From a virus, in IMG/VR virus record IMGVR_UViG_3300006076_000026, positions 1 through 24,513 of that record: a DNA stretch of 24,513 nucleotides. The stretch is one strand, 5' to 3'. Positions 1,965 to 22,216 of this stretch are shown here, piece by piece. The notes beneath the pieces are model-generated. The model was not told where the DNA came from. It did no database searches and saw nothing but the letters and a program-made list of their open reading frames with translations. The position numbers were made by a program, and so were the translations under genes. Within the stretch, counting starts at the first letter, position 1. Each line of letters opens with the position of its first letter.

Positions 1965-4133
1965 ATGAGCAAAAAAGTATTAAGTTTTGGCAATAACAAG
2001 GCTATTCATAGTGACATTGAAAAAACATTTTCACAAAGATTATCAGATGCAAAAGGAGTAAGTGATTTTAAAGGTAAACTACAATTAAAAGGTTTAGATG
2101 TAGCAACTCAACAATATGTTTTAGATAAATTAAAAAATTTAGATGGTTTAAATGTAGCTACTAAAGAATATGTTGAAGCTAAAATATTAGGACTTGATTT
2201 AGATGGTTTTGATTTTGAAGAGATTAAAAAGAAAACTTTAGACCTTATAAAAATCAATTATAATAACTTAGATGGCACAAGAACATATAATTTTATTGGA
2301 GATGGTAAAACTACTAAATTCAATTTTTATAGTAGAGGTACAGATATTGCAGTATTTATTGAAGGTATTAAAATTAATAAATCTGAGTTTACAGTTAATA
2401 TCAACGAAAAAACTCAAGTTGCTAATAGTATTACTTTTCATAAAGCTCCTCAAGATGGAGATGAAATTTCTTGTCTAGCATTTGGTGGATTAGATGTTTA
2501 TAGTAAAAAAGAAGTTGATGATCTTATAAATGATATTAAACCTGAAATGTCAGGAGATGAAATTTATAATAAAATAAAAAGTAAATTTGCTACTAAACAA
2601 GAACTAAAAGATGCTATTTTGAATGTGAGTACTGTTAAAGGTAAGCCTATCGCTTCAGAAAATTATGTTGATCAACAAATTTCTGCTATTAATGGTAATG
2701 TAGAGAAAAATATAGAAATAGCACAAGAATATTCTTTTGTATCAGATGGTAAAACTAAAACTTTTGTATTTCCATTCTTAGGGACAGGTTTTTCAGTTTT
2801 CATAGATGGTATTAAAATACAAGAAGATGATTTTATATCAAATTTTAACAAAAATACTAAAATAGGTAATTCTATTACATTAAAACAAGTACCTGCAGAA
2901 GGTTCTTTAATAGATTGTATATCTTATGGTAGAGGTGGAAATTTATTCACTAAAGATGAGGCTAGGAAAAACTTTGTATCTAAAGATGAAGCGAATAAAA
3001 TGTTTTCACAAGCTGTAGATGCAGATGGTAAAAAAATAGCAACTGAAGAATATGTTAATAAAAAAGTAGGTAGTTTAAGTGAATTAAATGTTGCTACTAA
3101 AAGTTATGTGGACAAAGAAATATCTACTATACCTTTTAAATTTAAAGGTAGAAAAATAGCTTCAGAAAATTTTGTAAATGATAGTTTATCTTCACTTACT
3201 ATTACAAAAGATACTGAAACTTTTGCTAAAAATTATACTTTTACAGGAGATGGTAAAACTAATAAATTCAATGTTATTTTTGCAGGAAATGGTATAAATG
3301 TTTTTGTAGACGGTATTTTGATTGATCCTGCAGAATATATTTTACATAGTAATTCAGAACATATAGGAGAGAGTATAGAACTAGAAAACACTCCTAAAGA
3401 AGGAGATACTATTACTATTTCAGTTTTTGGGGCTGGTAATGTATATTCAAGAACAGAAAATGATAAAGTATTTGTTAAAAAAGAAGATGTAAGACAAGCG
3501 CTAGAAGTAGCTGCAGGCGATAAAATAGCAACTGAAAAATATGTACAAGGTACAATTAATAAAGTTGAAAACAATGTAAATCTTACACATAGTTATTCTT
3601 TTATAGGAGATGGTAATAAGAAAACTTTTAGTTTCAGTTATATTCCTGAAGCAGTTCATATCTTTGTAGAGGGAGTTCTTGTTAAAGAAGATTCATATAC
3701 TAAAAATATTAGTAAAACTACAGGATTAGGTACTTCTATTACTTTAGAAAATGCACCAACAAAAGAAGATGAAATTGTATGTATCGCTTATGGTGGAGCA
3801 GATGTTTATAGTAAAACTCAAGCAAATAATAAATTTGTTCAAAAAGATGCTTATAAAAAAATAGCTAAAGATTATACAGCCTTAAGCGGAGATTATATTT
3901 TAGCAGATACAGCTAAAAATGGGGCTTTTAAAGTAACAATAAACTCTAAATTACCTGAATTTACCAAAATAAAAATTCTGGATGTAAAATCTAATTTTGA
4001 TAAAGATAATTTAATATTAACAGTATCGGGTTCAGATACTATTATGGGTTCAAGTGATGATTATAAATTATCTATAGCAGATGAATTTGTAACATTATTA
4101 AAAGTGGATAATGATTGGAGAGTAATCTCTTAG
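1965..4133 (+). CDS. Modular tail-fibre protein with four beta-domain repeats
   Basis: A 722-aa fibre. It has four copies of a roughly 73-residue domain starting at residues 108, 256, 424 and 544, each with Y-x-F-x-x-D-G-x-x-x-x-F near its start, F-[IV]-[DE]-G in the middle and a G-rich end near V-Y-S. The linkers carry eight copies of a short motif, [IV]-A-[TS]-x-x-[YF]-V (for example VATQQYV, VATKEYV, IASENYV, IATEKYV), the shaft motif common in trimeric phage fibres. Residues about 632-722 form a distinct C-terminal domain (YTALSGDYILADT to WRVIS) of a kind that often ends fibre and spike proteins. No protease or lyase signature is visible. It is co-transcribed with the 136-aa gene and followed by a hairpin. 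Receptor contact or a connector role for the next, larger fibre are both possible. Confidence 0.88.
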   Translation: MSKKVLSFGNNKAIHSDIEKTFSQRLSDAKGVSDFKGKLQLKGLDVATQQYVLDKLKNLDGLNVATKEYVEAKILGLDLDGFDFEEIKKKTLDLIKINYNNLDGTRTYNFIGDGKTTKFNFYSRGTDIAVFIEGIKINKSEFTVNINEKTQVANSITFHKAPQDGDEISCLAFGGLDVYSKKEVDDLINDIKPEMSGDEIYNKIKSKFATKQELKDAILNVSTVKGKPIASENYVDQQISAINGNVEKNIEIAQEYSFVSDGKTKTFVFPFLGTGFSVFIDGIKIQEDDFISNFNKNTKIGNSITLKQVPAEGSLIDCISYGRGGNLFTKDEARKNFVSKDEANKMFSQAVDADGKKIATEEYVNKKVGSLSELNVATKSYVDKEISTIPFKFKGRKIASENFVNDSLSSLTITKDTETFAKNYTFTGDGKTNKFNVIFAGNGINVFVDGILIDPAEYILHSNSEHIGESIELENTPKEGDTITISVFGAGNVYSRTENDKVFVKKEDVRQALEVAAGDKIATEKYVQGTINKVENNVNLTHSYSFIGDGNKKTFSFSYIPEAVHIFVEGVLVKEDSYTKNISKTTGLGTSITLENAPTKEDEIVCIAYGGADVYSKTQANNKFVQKDAYKKIAKDYTALSGDYILADTAKNGAFKVTINSKLPEFTKIKILDVKSNFDKDNLILTVSGSDTIMGSSDDYKLSIADEFVTLLKVDNDWRVIS
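2286..3815 (+). repeat. Four intragenic protein-domain repeats in the 722-aa fibre
   Basis: The repeat units lie at about 2286-2504, 2730-2948, 3234-3449 and 3594-3815. They are clearly related at protein level (shared D-G-K/N, F-I/V-D/E-G and G-[AGR]-[DGN]-V/L-[YF]-[ST] positions) but divergent at DNA level, so this is an old duplication and not a recent tandem expansion. Spacing is uneven because linkers with different numbers of A-T-x-x-Y-V motifs separate them. Confidence 0.85.
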
Positions 4134-4454: not shown

Positions 4455-7400
4455 ATGGCAAATTATACAAGAAAACCGAATTATCACTTTAAAAGTAAAC
4501 ATTCTGTAGGTATTGATAAAGTACCAGCAGGTAGAATGGTAATCGTAGAGGACTTTGAGGGTGATGGTTCAATGGAAACTAAAACTTTCATCAAGAAAGA
4601 CCATGGAGCTAATTCAAAAATTACAGCTAGTACAACAATCGGTGATGCTCTTCAAACAACAGGACTTAAAAGTAATGTTTTAGTAGAGGCAAATAATACA
4701 AATATTGTTATGAATTCAATGATGACTAAGGCTGAGTTTGATAAAATAGCTGAGGCTAATAGAGATAAATTCGCTGGTAGTGGTGTTATAAATTACGGTT
4801 TATATAGTTCTATTAATGTTAGTGAAGATTTATGGGTTAGACATACTACATCTTGGCCAGGAACAAATAGCTTAGTTTTAGGATATCCAGAAAACTGTTG
4901 TTATAGAAAATCAGGTCGTGGTACTAAACAATATCCTAAATATAATGTTAATGGGAATGAGATTAAACTAGCAGAACTTAACTGGGGAGATGGTACTTTT
5001 GCTACTGGTGGAGTATTTAAATTCGCAGAGGCTTCAGGAATGATTCCAGCTATTACAGATAGTACAAAAGCACCAGCTATGAAACAAGGTGATATGACTA
5101 TTTTGAAAGATTTGAAAAGAAACTTCGTTCCTCATGTGGCAAGTAGTGATGATATTATACATAACTGGACCAATAATGGTACTACTGAAAGAGCAAATAT
5201 CACTAAAGTTGATAATAAAATTGTTAAAGTACAAAATAAATCAGGCAAGCAGTGGGGTTATTTGGCTACTAACATAAGTGGTAAAGATAATTATGTAAAA
5301 CTTATTAAAGGAGTAAAATATGAAATATCTTTTACTTTAACAGAAACAAATGATGGAATGAAGTTTGGTACTTGGAGTACAGGCAATAATAATTTTCGAG
5401 GAGTTGTTGGTGAAAATAAAGTTATATATACTCCTAATAGAAATGAAGACAGATTACATTTTTATGTTCAAGCTGGAGATAATGATAGTTATTTTAAAAT
5501 AGATGTAACTACTATTTCCATTAAACAAGCTCAGGAATCTCCTATCGTAGCTCTTCAAGATATAGATGCAGGTGATATTAAAAATAACTGTACTCATTTT
5601 GAAGCTAGAAGTTCTGTTTCAAGACAAGACTTAGTATTTTTAGAGACATGGCACGAAGATATTTCTGAAAAAGGAATAGTATATCCATTTGGTAATGTTC
5701 AATACAGAGGTGGAGATGTACACGGTTGTAAAGGAATTATCGATGGTAGTTTTGAGGGGGCTGATAGTTATTCATTATTCGGTAACTGGCAAGAACCTGG
5801 AGCATTAGTTGGTAGAGGTTATCCTTGGGAAGCAATGTCATTGGCAGAAAAAACTGCTTTTGTAGGAAATAAAGATAATAATATTTACGTAGATGGTTCT
5901 AAAATAATTCAAGTAAGATATAGAATAAGAGTTATTAAAGGTATAAATAATAAATGGCATAATGTACTAGCAAACAGTTCTTCAAACTCTCTAACGGCTC
6001 AATCATCAGGAAATTGGAATGTTAATGCTAAAGGTAAATCATGTGTAGTGCCTGTTTATAATGAAGATATATCTTCAAGTTGGTCAGCTAAATTTATGAC
6101 TAAAGGACATGGTATAGATGCCACTTATGCCGATTTAGGTTTATTTGCAATGGAGACAGGAACAGATAATGACGCAGTACAGGTAAAAATTCAAAAAGAA
6201 GCAGGAGCAATAGTACAAGCACTTCCAATAGCACTTGTTCAAAGAAGAAACTCAGGTGTTTGGCATGAAACTTTCAATCCAGAAGGTACAGCTAGGGTTT
6301 ATTATGATGGTAAAGCAGTAATATCTTATTTAGCACCAGAAGGTATTATTAAATCAACTGCAGATTGTTTTGATCATAATCTAATTGCTACTATTGATAT
6401 TACAGATCCTACTAATGCTAGTAGATTAGTTAATCTTGATGATGGTACAGATGATGCAAGTAAATATAAAGCAACAGGTACTATGTTATCTAAAATGTCA
6501 GGTAGACCAGATGGACTATATTCAGATGAAGTTAATGAAAGAGATGTTGAAGATTTAAGAATGTCAGCTCACAAGAAAACTTATGAAGAAATATTAGATG
6601 AAGCTACTACAAATGCTATAAATGGTAAAGTTAGAGGTAAAGAAACTACTAAAGAACTTATATTAAATTATACTGTTGACTCAAAACATTCAACATCAGG
6701 TAGTGGTTGGTATATTTATTGTGATAAAAATAACTTAAACTTGGAAGTAACTCTTGATAAACATAATTTAATAAATATCGATCGAAGAAATTGGACAAGT
6801 GATTTACTTTCTAGAGGTACTTTAGGTGAAAAAACTACAGCTATTATATATCATGAAGATGTTGGTTATGAAACATTTGGTTCATTTTATGCTGGAAATT
6901 ACTATTTTGGATGTTCTCATTCTGAAGATAGAAGTAAATTAAGTAAATTTGCTAATAAAAAAGGCGTAAGAATTATGGTATTTTCATCATTATATAGTAA
7001 ATATACACAAAATAATACATCTATAGCTTGTGATATTATTGGTGATCCTCGTAAACTTAAAACTAGAATTACTTTAGACATTAAAAGTGATGCTGTAGTT
7101 AAAATTACAAATAATCAATATGTATTATGTTCGGATAATAGTAGCAATGGTGGTAGAAAAGGTTATTACTATAGAAAAATTGGCGGAGATATAGAAAGTA
7201 TTCACACTAATAGTGGAGATGGTAAGCCTAATGAAGAAGGCGGACATATAGATTTCAGTGATGACCATGTATGGATTGAGTTATCTAATAAGGGTGAACT
7301 TGGTGGTTATAGAAAAGAATGGATGGAAAAAGGTATAGATGGTATCCCTCTTTTATATGATGAAAATGGTGAAAATTTATTACCTATAAATTTTGATTTA

Positions 7401-8678
7401 AGAGAAATAACTTATGCTAATAATACAGGTAAATGTTCTAATACTAGATTATCAAAAAGACTAAGACACGCTAAAACTATAGTTATTTTAGATGGTGAAG
7501 GTAATACAGTTAAGACATATACGAAATTTCTTGGAAATGGTCATGGTAATGATGGTGAGTATTGGGCAGTAGGTATGGATAGTGGCCATATTAATGAACA
7601 AGGATATAATCCTATTAAAAATACAGTTATATTTGACTGGGATCAATTAGAAAAATTCGTTACTAATGCTTTAGACTTTGCGATTATTAAAGTATATTAT
7701 GAAACAAAAGCTAACTTCTTAGAAATAGCTAATTTTGCTAGAGCAAAAGCTTCTAATACTGTAATAGTAGATAAAAGACATGATTCAGCAATGGTACCTA
7801 TGCTAATTAATAAAGTTCCTCAAGGAAGATATGCTGATACTTCTTTTAAAAGATTTAGTAATGTTTCTTTAGGAGTTGCTAATACTCAAGGAATAATATC
7901 TACTTCACATTTAGAAAATAATGGTTATCCTATTAATATTGGATCAGATTTAGCTACTGAAAATTTTGGTTGGGATTCTTTAGTAAATCCTGTTAAATAT
8001 TTACCTTTCTTAACTGAAGCTGATTCAAAAGCTAGAGTACAGTTTATATTTAAGGAATTAAAATTTGATAGTCAGACTAAATATAGACTACCAAGAGATG
8101 GTGTTTATGCTAATGGTCAATATGTTGGAGGACATCACCGTTCTTATACAGTAGCTGTATTTGATAAAGATGGTAACTATTCAGAAGTAAGAAGTTTCGA
8201 TGTTTATGGAAATAATGGTAATGGTAGACAAAACTTTAAAGATTTTGTTAAAAATATTCCTGTGGGTTCAATTGTTGCTGTTTCTACTTGGGATGAACCA
8301 GCTAATGGTAGAGATGATGAACATAAAAAATTAATGGAATCAATTGGTGCTACTAGAGCTATTTTAGATAGTTTTAATCATAGAAGTTCTTATGCTTTAA
8401 TAGGTATAAAAGGTAGTGATAAAGGTACTATGCTTGAAGAGAGATATTCTCCTAGATACCAAGCAGGTATAGTTATAAGTTATACAACTGGTGATAATAC
8501 TATTAAAGTTGTTTCAGATAACTTTGAAAATAAAGATATTTTCTTTAAAAATACTGGTTCTTGGGGAGATGATAATAAATTTCAAGTAAGGAATAAAATA
8601 TCAACTTTAACAGATGATAATGGTAATAAAGTTCTATATGGTCAAAAATATATGAACATTAATTATTTTATAAAATAG
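4455..8678 (+). CDS. Large tail fibre / receptor-binding protein with ILEI/FAM3-like modules
   Basis: At 1407 aa this is the longest protein in the window. Residues about 222-360 look like a beta-sandwich carbohydrate-binding module (a W-T-N-N-G-T start, G-V-K-Y-E-I-S-F-T core). Residues about 395-420 carry FLETWHEDISEKGIVYPFG, a pattern I associate with large phage fibres. The C-terminal third holds three modules with the same rhythm. The last (about 1230-1342: VAVFDKDG, SFDVYG, VGSIVAVSTWDEPANG, RSSYALIGIKG) matches the ILEI/PANDER (FAM3) fold, seen in carbohydrate-binding contexts. The others begin near 790 and 1004. A terminal beta domain follows. Size and position recall Gp047, the flagellin-glycan-binding protein of Campylobacter phage NCTC 12673, but homology was not tested. 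The start has an AAAGGAG site. The fibre call is firm; the glycan receptor is inference. Confidence 0.85.
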   Translation: MANYTRKPNYHFKSKHSVGIDKVPAGRMVIVEDFEGDGSMETKTFIKKDHGANSKITASTTIGDALQTTGLKSNVLVEANNTNIVMNSMMTKAEFDKIAEANRDKFAGSGVINYGLYSSINVSEDLWVRHTTSWPGTNSLVLGYPENCCYRKSGRGTKQYPKYNVNGNEIKLAELNWGDGTFATGGVFKFAEASGMIPAITDSTKAPAMKQGDMTILKDLKRNFVPHVASSDDIIHNWTNNGTTERANITKVDNKIVKVQNKSGKQWGYLATNISGKDNYVKLIKGVKYEISFTLTETNDGMKFGTWSTGNNNFRGVVGENKVIYTPNRNEDRLHFYVQAGDNDSYFKIDVTTISIKQAQESPIVALQDIDAGDIKNNCTHFEARSSVSRQDLVFLETWHEDISEKGIVYPFGNVQYRGGDVHGCKGIIDGSFEGADSYSLFGNWQEPGALVGRGYPWEAMSLAEKTAFVGNKDNNIYVDGSKIIQVRYRIRVIKGINNKWHNVLANSSSNSLTAQSSGNWNVNAKGKSCVVPVYNEDISSSWSAKFMTKGHGIDATYADLGLFAMETGTDNDAVQVKIQKEAGAIVQALPIALVQRRNSGVWHETFNPEGTARVYYDGKAVISYLAPEGIIKSTADCFDHNLIATIDITDPTNASRLVNLDDGTDDASKYKATGTMLSKMSGRPDGLYSDEVNERDVEDLRMSAHKKTYEEILDEATTNAINGKVRGKETTKELILNYTVDSKHSTSGSGWYIYCDKNNLNLEVTLDKHNLINIDRRNWTSDLLSRGTLGEKTTAIIYHEDVGYETFGSFYAGNYYFGCSHSEDRSKLSKFANKKGVRIMVFSSLYSKYTQNNTSIACDIIGDPRKLKTRITLDIKSDAVVKITNNQYVLCSDNSSNGGRKGYYYRKIGGDIESIHTNSGDGKPNEEGGHIDFSDDHVWIELSNKGELGGYRKEWMEKGIDGIPLLYDENGENLLPINFDLREITYANNTGKCSNTRLSKRLRHAKTIVILDGEGNTVKTYTKFLGNGHGNDGEYWAVGMDSGHINEQGYNPIKNTVIFDWDQLEKFVTNALDFAIIKVYYETKANFLEIANFARAKASNTVIVDKRHDSAMVPMLINKVPQGRYADTSFKRFSNVSLGVANTQGIISTSHLENNGYPINIGSDLATENFGWDSLVNPVKYLPFLTEADSKARVQFIFKELKFDSQTKYRLPRDGVYANGQYVGGHHRSYTVAVFDKDGNYSEVRSFDVYGNNGNGRQNFKDFVKNIPVGSIVAVSTWDEPANGRDDEHKKLMESIGATRAILDSFNHRSSYALIGIKGSDKGTMLEERYSPRYQAGIVISYTTGDNTIKVVSDNFENKDIFFKNTGSWGDDNKFQVRNKISTLTDDNGNKVLYGQKYMNINYFIK

Positions 8679-20440: not shown

Positions 20441-22216
20441 ATGATAGATAAAATTAAGGAAAAACTATATCTTAATAACAATTCTCTAACCATAACAAAA
20501 AAATCACTAAAAGAATTATCACTTTCTGCAGAAAAATGTTATCAAATATATTATAATTATGTGAAATGTCCAAAATGTAAATTTATAAGTTTTTCCAAAG
20601 GATATCAATCTTGTATATGTCAGTTTAATAATGAAAAAGAGTTTTATGAGTCATTAAAGGATAAAAATGGTTTTATACAGGGTAGTATATATAAAAAATA
20701 TAATTTAAATAAGGAAAAAGTGCAAAGGGTTCTTCAGGATTTTCCAAAATGTAAAATATGCGGTGATAATGCTTTATTTACTAATTCAGCTTTTAAATCG
20801 TATTGTATAAAACATAAAAGTGAATATAGAAGTTATGTGCACAAAAATTTATCTAAAGAAAAAAAAGAAAAAATTATTCAAAAAAGAAAGGAAACTTGTC
20901 TTAAAAAATATGGAAATGAATGCTCTCTAGCCTCTGAAGAAAATAAAGAAAAGGCTAAAAAAACTAAAAAAGAAAGATATGGCAATGAAAACTATTGTAA
21001 CCTTGAGAAAATCAAAAAAACTAAAAAAGAAAGATATGGCAATGAAAACTATTGTAATTCTGAGAAAGCTAATAAAACTAAAGAACAAAAAAGTGAACTA
21101 AAAAAGAAAGAATATAGAGAGAATTTATCTAATTCTAGAATAAATTTCATAAACTCAAAAAGAACTAATATAAGTGATATTAATGAGAAATATTTTAGAG
21201 ATAATTTTATTAAAAATAATAAGTTTCTCTTTAAAGAGTGTCAAGAATATACTAATATCCCCACTAGCACCTTAAATTATCTAAAAAAGGAATTTCATAT
21301 ATCAGAAAATAATATGTCTAACAATGAAACAATTGAAGATAAAATAAATAAAATATTTAATAATTCTTTTATTTTAAGAAATAGAAATATTATCTCTCCC
21401 TTAGAACTAGATTTATACTCAAAACAACATAATTTTGCTATAGAGTATAATGGTCTTATATGGCATTCTTATGGTAAATCTAAACATTCTATGTTTAATA
21501 ATTATAATGAAGAAAACTATAATAGACATTTAGATAAAACTATATTATGTGAAAATAAAGGTATTCAATTATTCCATATATTTGAAAATGAATGGTTAGA
21601 TAAAAATAAAAAAAGTATATGGATTTCTATTATAAGAGATAAATTAAATAAAAATAAAAAAATAGGAGCAAGAAAATGTACCATTAAAGAAGTTCCCACT
21701 AAAGAAGCTAAAGAATTTATTAATAAAAACCATATGCAAGGATATACTAATGCTAAAATAAAAATAGGTCTTTATTATAATAATATTTTAGTCTCTATAA
21801 TGACATTTAGTAAACCTAGATTTAATAAAAATGTAGAACAAGGTGAGTATGAACTTATAAGATTTTGTACTAAAAAGAATATTACTATACAAGGTGGAGG
21901 GTCTAAGATACTTAAGTATTTTGAAAAAACTTATAAACCTAAATCTTTAATTAGTTATGCTAATAGAAGATGGAGTACAGGTAATTTTTATATTAAAGTA
22001 GGTTTTACTTTTATAAAAGATACTAAACCTAATTATTTTTATTTTAGACCAGGAGAAAATATATTATATAGTAGAAATATGTTTCAAAAACATAAATTAA
22101 GTAATATATTAGAAAATTTTAATCCTAATTTAACCGAAAGTGAAAATATGTATAATAATAATTATAGAAAAATATATGATTCAGGAAATAAAAAATATAT
22201 TAAATATTATACATAA
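20441..22216 (+). CDS. Free-standing Hef-like homing endonuclease
   Basis: A 591-aa selfish endonuclease that would cut phage genomes lacking the gene and be copied in by repair. Domains: two zinc-finger-like Cys clusters (C43-x2-C46 with C58/C60; C104-x2-C107 with C122/H125). Then comes a DNA-contacting repeat region (about 150-215) with three units of K-K-E-R-Y-G-N-E-x-Y/C type. A helix-turn-helix-like stretch follows (about 255-285). The catalytic domain (about 305-560) contains Glu322-Leu-Asp324, Glu335-x-Asn337-Gly338 and Trp341-His342-Ser343, then HLDKTILCENKGIQLFHIFENEW, typical of Vsr-like/PD-(D/E)xK homing enzymes. It sits between the small core gene and gp21, breaking a T4-conserved order, and uses an AAAAGGAT ribosome site unlike its late neighbours. 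The frame is intact. The target is probably a neighbouring gene. Confidence 0.88.
   Translation: MIDKIKEKLYLNNNSLTITKKSLKELSLSAEKCYQIYYNYVKCPKCKFISFSKGYQSCICQFNNEKEFYESLKDKNGFIQGSIYKKYNLNKEKVQRVLQDFPKCKICGDNALFTNSAFKSYCIKHKSEYRSYVHKNLSKEKKEKIIQKRKETCLKKYGNECSLASEENKEKAKKTKKERYGNENYCNLEKIKKTKKERYGNENYCNSEKANKTKEQKSELKKKEYRENLSNSRINFINSKRTNISDINEKYFRDNFIKNNKFLFKECQEYTNIPTSTLNYLKKEFHISENNMSNNETIEDKINKIFNNSFILRNRNIISPLELDLYSKQHNFAIEYNGLIWHSYGKSKHSMFNNYNEENYNRHLDKTILCENKGIQLFHIFENEWLDKNKKSIWISIIRDKLNKNKKIGARKCTIKEVPTKEAKEFINKNHMQGYTNAKIKIGLYYNNILVSIMTFSKPRFNKNVEQGEYELIRFCTKKNITIQGGGSKILKYFEKTYKPKSLISYANRRWSTGNFYIKVGFTFIKDTKPNYFYFRPGENILYSRNMFQKHKLSNILENFNPNLTESENMYNNNYRKIYDSGNKKYIKYYT
20957..21057. 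repeat. 44-bp exact direct repeat in the homing endonuclease gene
   Basis: Copies 20957-21000 and 21014-21057 are identical over 44 bases, 57 bp (19 codons) apart, so the frame is kept. They encode two consecutive KKTKKERYGNENYCN units. A more diverged unit precedes them (KKYGNECS). This is a recent in-frame duplication in the DNA-binding part. Confidence 0.92.

Follow-up and report, generated by a model that had tools for sequence, protein, structure and literature searches.

The ILEI/FAM3 (GG) domain is on record in FAM3, POMGnT1, TMEM2 and phage gp35 (PMC10276149, citing earlier work). Arg129, Asp179 and Arg207 form the sugar contacts of POMGnT1, and the domains of FAM3C, FAM3A and C. elegans Fam3L2 keep this triad and bind sugars (PMC9802357). 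GlcNAc was bound by the triad-bearing FAM3C and Fam3L2, but not by Fam3L1, in which two of the three residues are missing (PMC9802357). The same triad argument has been made for TMEM2, where domain 1 has the triad and domain 2 lacks it (PMC10206443).

Among phages, the domain is known from the gp35 hinge connectors (phrog_1154) of the long tail fibre of T4-like phages. The protein described here, P0001, has a domain of the same family. However, unlike gp35, it is a 1407-residue fibre of another family with the ILEI domain near its C-terminus. While the GG/ILEI domain of phage gp35 was already known, the host protein and the insertion site are new here.

The fibre gene and its surroundings

The window, meaning the whole stretch of DNA analysed, comprises the 24,513 bases of a virus record. 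Its T4-like genes encode a tail sheath, portal, head maturation protease, major head protein, endonuclease VII and Dda-like helicase. The closest relatives of the sheath are those of Vibrio phage Va1 and Campylobacter phages, with approximately 40-44% identity. The following ORF very probably encodes a large tail fibre of this T4-like myophage.

4455..8678, + strand: large fibre-like ORF, 1407 aa (P0001); phrog_14489 match E 4.7e-67, with similar proteins in Vibrio and Pseudoalteromonas phages

An earlier note on this DNA had proposed that the C-terminal part of the fibre contains three related ILEI-type modules (modules 1, 2 and 3 below), forming a triplicated lectin array. The peptides it quoted were all located in ORF 4455-8678, at residues 794, 1007, 1231, 838, 1075, 1272, 1101 and 1301, and these positions are exact or no more than 4 residues off the figures given.

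Two other genes of the window deserve mention. The upstream 722-aa ORF (1965-4133) has four diverged repeats (YxFxGDGKTxxFxF...VFVDGIxI), with DNA copies at 2286, 2730, 3234 and 3560-3629, and several IATEEYV-like motifs; it is probably another fibre-type structural protein. A homing endonuclease (20441-22216; phrog_3339, E 1.7e-114) with tandem KKERYGNENYCN motifs lies between the portal and head maturation protease genes.

When the neighbouring 912-aa helicase gene was used as query, no relatives were found. The 17 capsid-gene relatives of the phage, mostly fragments, contained no ILEI domain and no fibre match except one 84-aa ORF. This ORF, on a related phage contig (L019 1477-1728), matches fibre residues 7-80 (E 1.4e-7). 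The N-terminus of the fibre may therefore be joined to other fibre ends elsewhere or survive as a broken gene.

The ILEI domain of module 3

8145..8417, + strand: ILEI/FAM3 (GG) domain, module 3, residues 1231-1321; PF15711 profile match

The Pfam ILEI profile (PF15711), which has a gathering cut-off of 27 bits, matched residues 1231-1321 with 60 bits in the whole protein, 63.9 bits for the segment alone and 65.3 bits in another search. The suggestion that module 3 fits the ILEI/PANDER pattern was therefore confirmed at 60-65 bits, and for this module an ILEI-type domain in a phage fibre was confirmed as well. A phmmer comparison of module 3 with PDB sequences found FAM3A and FAM3C, and a profile built from six phage relatives also matched FAM3B and the POMGnT1 stem. 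By profile homology, module 3 is a true ILEI/FAM3 domain. Like the POMGnT1 stem and FAM3A, B and C, it has the ILEI/GG domain with similarly spaced R/D/R positions, but POMGnT1 and FAM3 are eukaryotic secreted or Golgi proteins and are distant from module 3 in sequence (19-24 bits by phmmer). The single-sequence structure model of residues 780-1407 was poor (pLDDT 34, low confidence), so it is sequence homology that supports the predicted ILEI fold of module 3.

The closest phage relatives of module 3 are ILEI domains in proteins of Klebsiella, Burkholderia, Acinetobacter, Vibrio and Bacillus G phages. Unlike P0001, these are other tail proteins or hypothetical proteins. Two near-identical ILEI domains are present in Vibrio phage Marilyn gp57 (L033 45-2396). 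Burkholderia phage SURPRISE13_088 (L035 1354-2616) contains two diverged copies, and the following gene encodes a third. These two are real phage ILEI arrays, unlike P0001. Furthermore, a 4846-aa open frame (L049/L050) in a genome of the order of P. denitrificans has an ILEI domain scoring 52 bits, the sole one in 394 genomes. Viral contigs contained no match to a degenerate-DNA pattern designed for ILEI.

Modules 1 and 2 and the fibre family

If the fibre carried three ILEI-type lectins in a row, modules 1 and 2 would be very diverged copies of the domain. The "same rhythm" described for the three segments was at the level of chance: the Smith-Waterman scores of modules 1 and 2, 1 and 3, and 2 and 3 were reached by 391, 772 and 65 of 1000 shuffles, respectively. 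A Pfam search at E up to 1 gave no match for modules 1 and 2. A phage ILEI profile was grown to 20 domains and, when run on P0001 with all filters off, detected one domain and no second. The score of this profile on residues 729-900 (module 1) was reached by 670 of 4999 shuffles, and that on residues 1060-1215 (module 2) by 1357 of 1999. Repeats among the three modules were not found at the DNA level either, and no counterpart of the triad was seen by eye in modules 1 and 2. The profile search that the earlier note had called for thus upheld module 3 and went against modules 1 and 2. The note had set differing predicted folds of the segments as one refuting condition; at the level of sequence, the three segments do differ from each other.

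The fibre family accounts for both segments. It is represented in Vibrio and Pseudoalteromonas phages and on a Pseudoalteromonas denitrificans contig. Eighteen further loci were taken from IMG/VR with the family alignment, and body and core profiles were built from the relatives. P0001 has the body, C-terminal core and WGDD tail in that order, in common with the phrog_14489-type fibres of Vibrio/Pseudoalteromonas phages. Its parts upstream of the ILEI domain are as follows.

5601..7058, + strand: conserved family body, residues 383-868, including module 1; profile of relatives, 235.8 bits
6822..7028, + strand: module 1, residues 790-858, flanked by the RGK and DIIGDP landmarks of the family; without ILEI signal
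7032..7049, + strand: DIIGDP motif, residues 860-865, family landmark
7059..7451, + strand: approximately 130 residues (869-999) from DIIGDP to LSKR; alignment and Pfam
7452..8075, + strand: module 2, residues 1000-1207, the family's C-terminal core with an extended hairpin, not ILEI

The match to the body profile stops at DIIGDP, which has a counterpart in most relatives (WVDIIGxPExI). The module 1 sequence itself is weakly family-like, its family-profile score being reached by 25 of 4999 shuffles, and its assignment to the family therefore depends on its position and the exact motif. The stretch from DIIGDP to LSKR is about 130 residues long here vs. about 25 in the relatives. No match to residues 869-999 was found, Pfam included, and the stretch is a second lineage-specific insertion.

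The C-terminal core profile matched residues 1077-1395 with 38.9 bits, treating the ILEI domain as a single large insertion, and gave 44.3 bits (E 2.7e-12) on residues 860-1407. On residues 1060-1215 alone, without the C-terminal tail, the match was weak at 16.0 bits and was reached by 0 of 1999 shuffles. The LSKR, NDGEYW, IKNT, YYETKANF, PMLINKV and VKYLPFLTEAD segments of module 2 aligned in register with 17 relatives. In the later half that modules 2 and 3 had been said to share, the module 2 stretch (NTVIVDKRHDSAMVPMLINK) is the ...GNRLxxSLxxxIG stretch of the fibre family.

Relatives of these segments were also sought elsewhere. Scans of viral contigs with P0001 and with 6780-8090 gave no relatives of modules 1 and 2. 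By tblastn against phages, module 2 had matches only at E about 5 and module 1 had none. Nor did modules 1 and 2 have a match in 394 genomes from the order to which the Pseudoalteromonas relative belongs.

The core of a relative (L055) was modelled with 18 aligned sequences. The block pLDDT was 77-92 over residues 1-90, and this part consists of beta strands and one short helix (8-14). Comparison with the PDB gave weak Ig-like matches, the best listed having Z 3.2 over 68 residues with an rmsd of 3.7, and Foldseek found no PDB match at E 0.001 or better. In the viral fold library there were seven matches at E 0.001 or better, of which the sole named one is a Vibrio VspSw_1 protein of the same fibre family. 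A FAM3 chain was not among the matches listed in these searches, which is no proof of absence. The modelled structure thus lends no support to a FAM3 fold for the core and does not disprove it.

Read by eye, and in a model of low confidence, the order of strands and helix in module 2 resembles that of module 3. However, neither module 1 nor module 2 gives an ILEI profile signal or has a visible triad, the match of module 2 is to the fibre core, and the confident part of the relative's core is modelled as mostly beta. A row of three lectins is extremely improbable, and three ILEI copies were rejected on the basis of the shuffles, the ILEI profile and the fibre-core match of module 2. As judged from the alignments and profiles, modules 1 and 2 are ordinary fibre parts and not lectins, and the proposed triplicated array was not borne out.

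The insertion slot

8076..8549, + strand: insertion with the ILEI domain, residues 1208-1365; relatives' profiles and alignment
8550..8669, + strand: conserved C-terminal tail, residues 1366-1405 (NTGSWGDDNKFQ..., SWGDDNKFQ...), 40 aa

The insertion follows the last core strand (FKELKFDS, residues 1200-1207) and precedes the tail, which is 55% identical to that of the P. denitrificans protein. In relatives L038, L052-L055 and L059 the slot is empty, and in L056-L058, L060-L064, L066 and L068 it is occupied by approximately 70 unrelated residues. Unlike P0001, none of the 29 phrog_14489-type relatives examined (0/29) has an ILEI domain. Judged by eye, the insert ends (GIVISYTTGDNTIKVV...SWGDD) in a similar way to some 70-residue inserts, such as that of L064 (GEIVSFTTGNVIG...SWGDD), and the ILEI domain may thus have taken the place of part of one. 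Taken from the alignment, the architecture is very probably that of a single ILEI domain in a variable slot of the fibre. A more tentative suggestion is that the slot is a cassette site for exchanged receptor-binding domains, which here would hold a FAM3-type lectin reading a host glycan via the Arg-Asp-Arg site of POMGnT1.

Sugar-contact residues and the role of the domain

8139..8141, + strand: R1229, equivalent of POMGnT1 R129; alignment (PMC9802357)
8292..8294, + strand: D1280, equivalent of POMGnT1 D179; alignment (PMC9802357)
8382..8384, + strand: R1310, equivalent of POMGnT1 R207; alignment (PMC9802357)

The equivalents of Arg129, Asp179 and Arg207 are all present in module 3; the POMGnT1 numbering was inferred from FAM3 alignments and the matching coordinates of chain 5ggj. 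All three residues are found in 14 of the 20 phage ILEI domains, module 3 too. The triad is absent from the ILEI domains of T4 gp35, which lacks all three residues, and Pantoea phage Phynn gp35; P0001, unlike T4 gp35, keeps it. The T4 gp35 region (L027 301-1332) scores as a degenerate ILEI domain, and the gp35 proteins of 44RR, POP12 and Cronobacter Invicta keep the triad.

A sugar-binding role is favoured because the triad is kept in module 3 and in most of the phage domains, and this role has about an even chance of being correct. In the account that best explains the data as a whole, and that is reasonably probable, the fibre body and C-terminal core belong to the Vibrio/Pseudoalteromonas phage family, with a single ILEI domain inserted near the C-terminus. 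Displayed at or near the end of the fibre, the domain would use R1229, D1280 and R1310 to bind a sugar on a surface, and each chain would thereby contribute one lectin contact to host recognition. A flagellar sugar, which had been named as a possible target, finds no support here.

The main rival casts the ILEI domain as a structural joint, a hinge or packing module without sugar binding, as in T4 gp35. Such a role is conceivable since T4 gp35, annotated as a hinge connector, and Phynn gp35 have the domain without the triad, and the conserved tail that follows the domain in P0001 could be the true tip. However, the triad of module 3 is intact, and the slot varies among the relatives, as expected of recognition rather than of a fixed joint. 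A purely structural role is less probable.

FAM3 proteins are chiefly known for signalling as secreted proteins. The insert might be a generic decoration with a non-sugar ligand such as a protein receptor, and in the literature searched no glycan ligand was reported for any phage ILEI domain. This explanation is improbable, and most phage copies keep the sugar triad, which argues against it.

Significance

The tempting interpretation of the fibre as a triplicated lectin is corrected by this analysis, and a site at which a fibre family takes in foreign domains is revealed. Should the triad of the inserted ILEI domain bind sugar, phage adhesins would have a ligand site in common with a human family of glycan-binding domains. 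Furthermore, the contrast with the degenerate copy in T4 gp35 would then offer a ready comparison of the lectin and structural uses of one domain.
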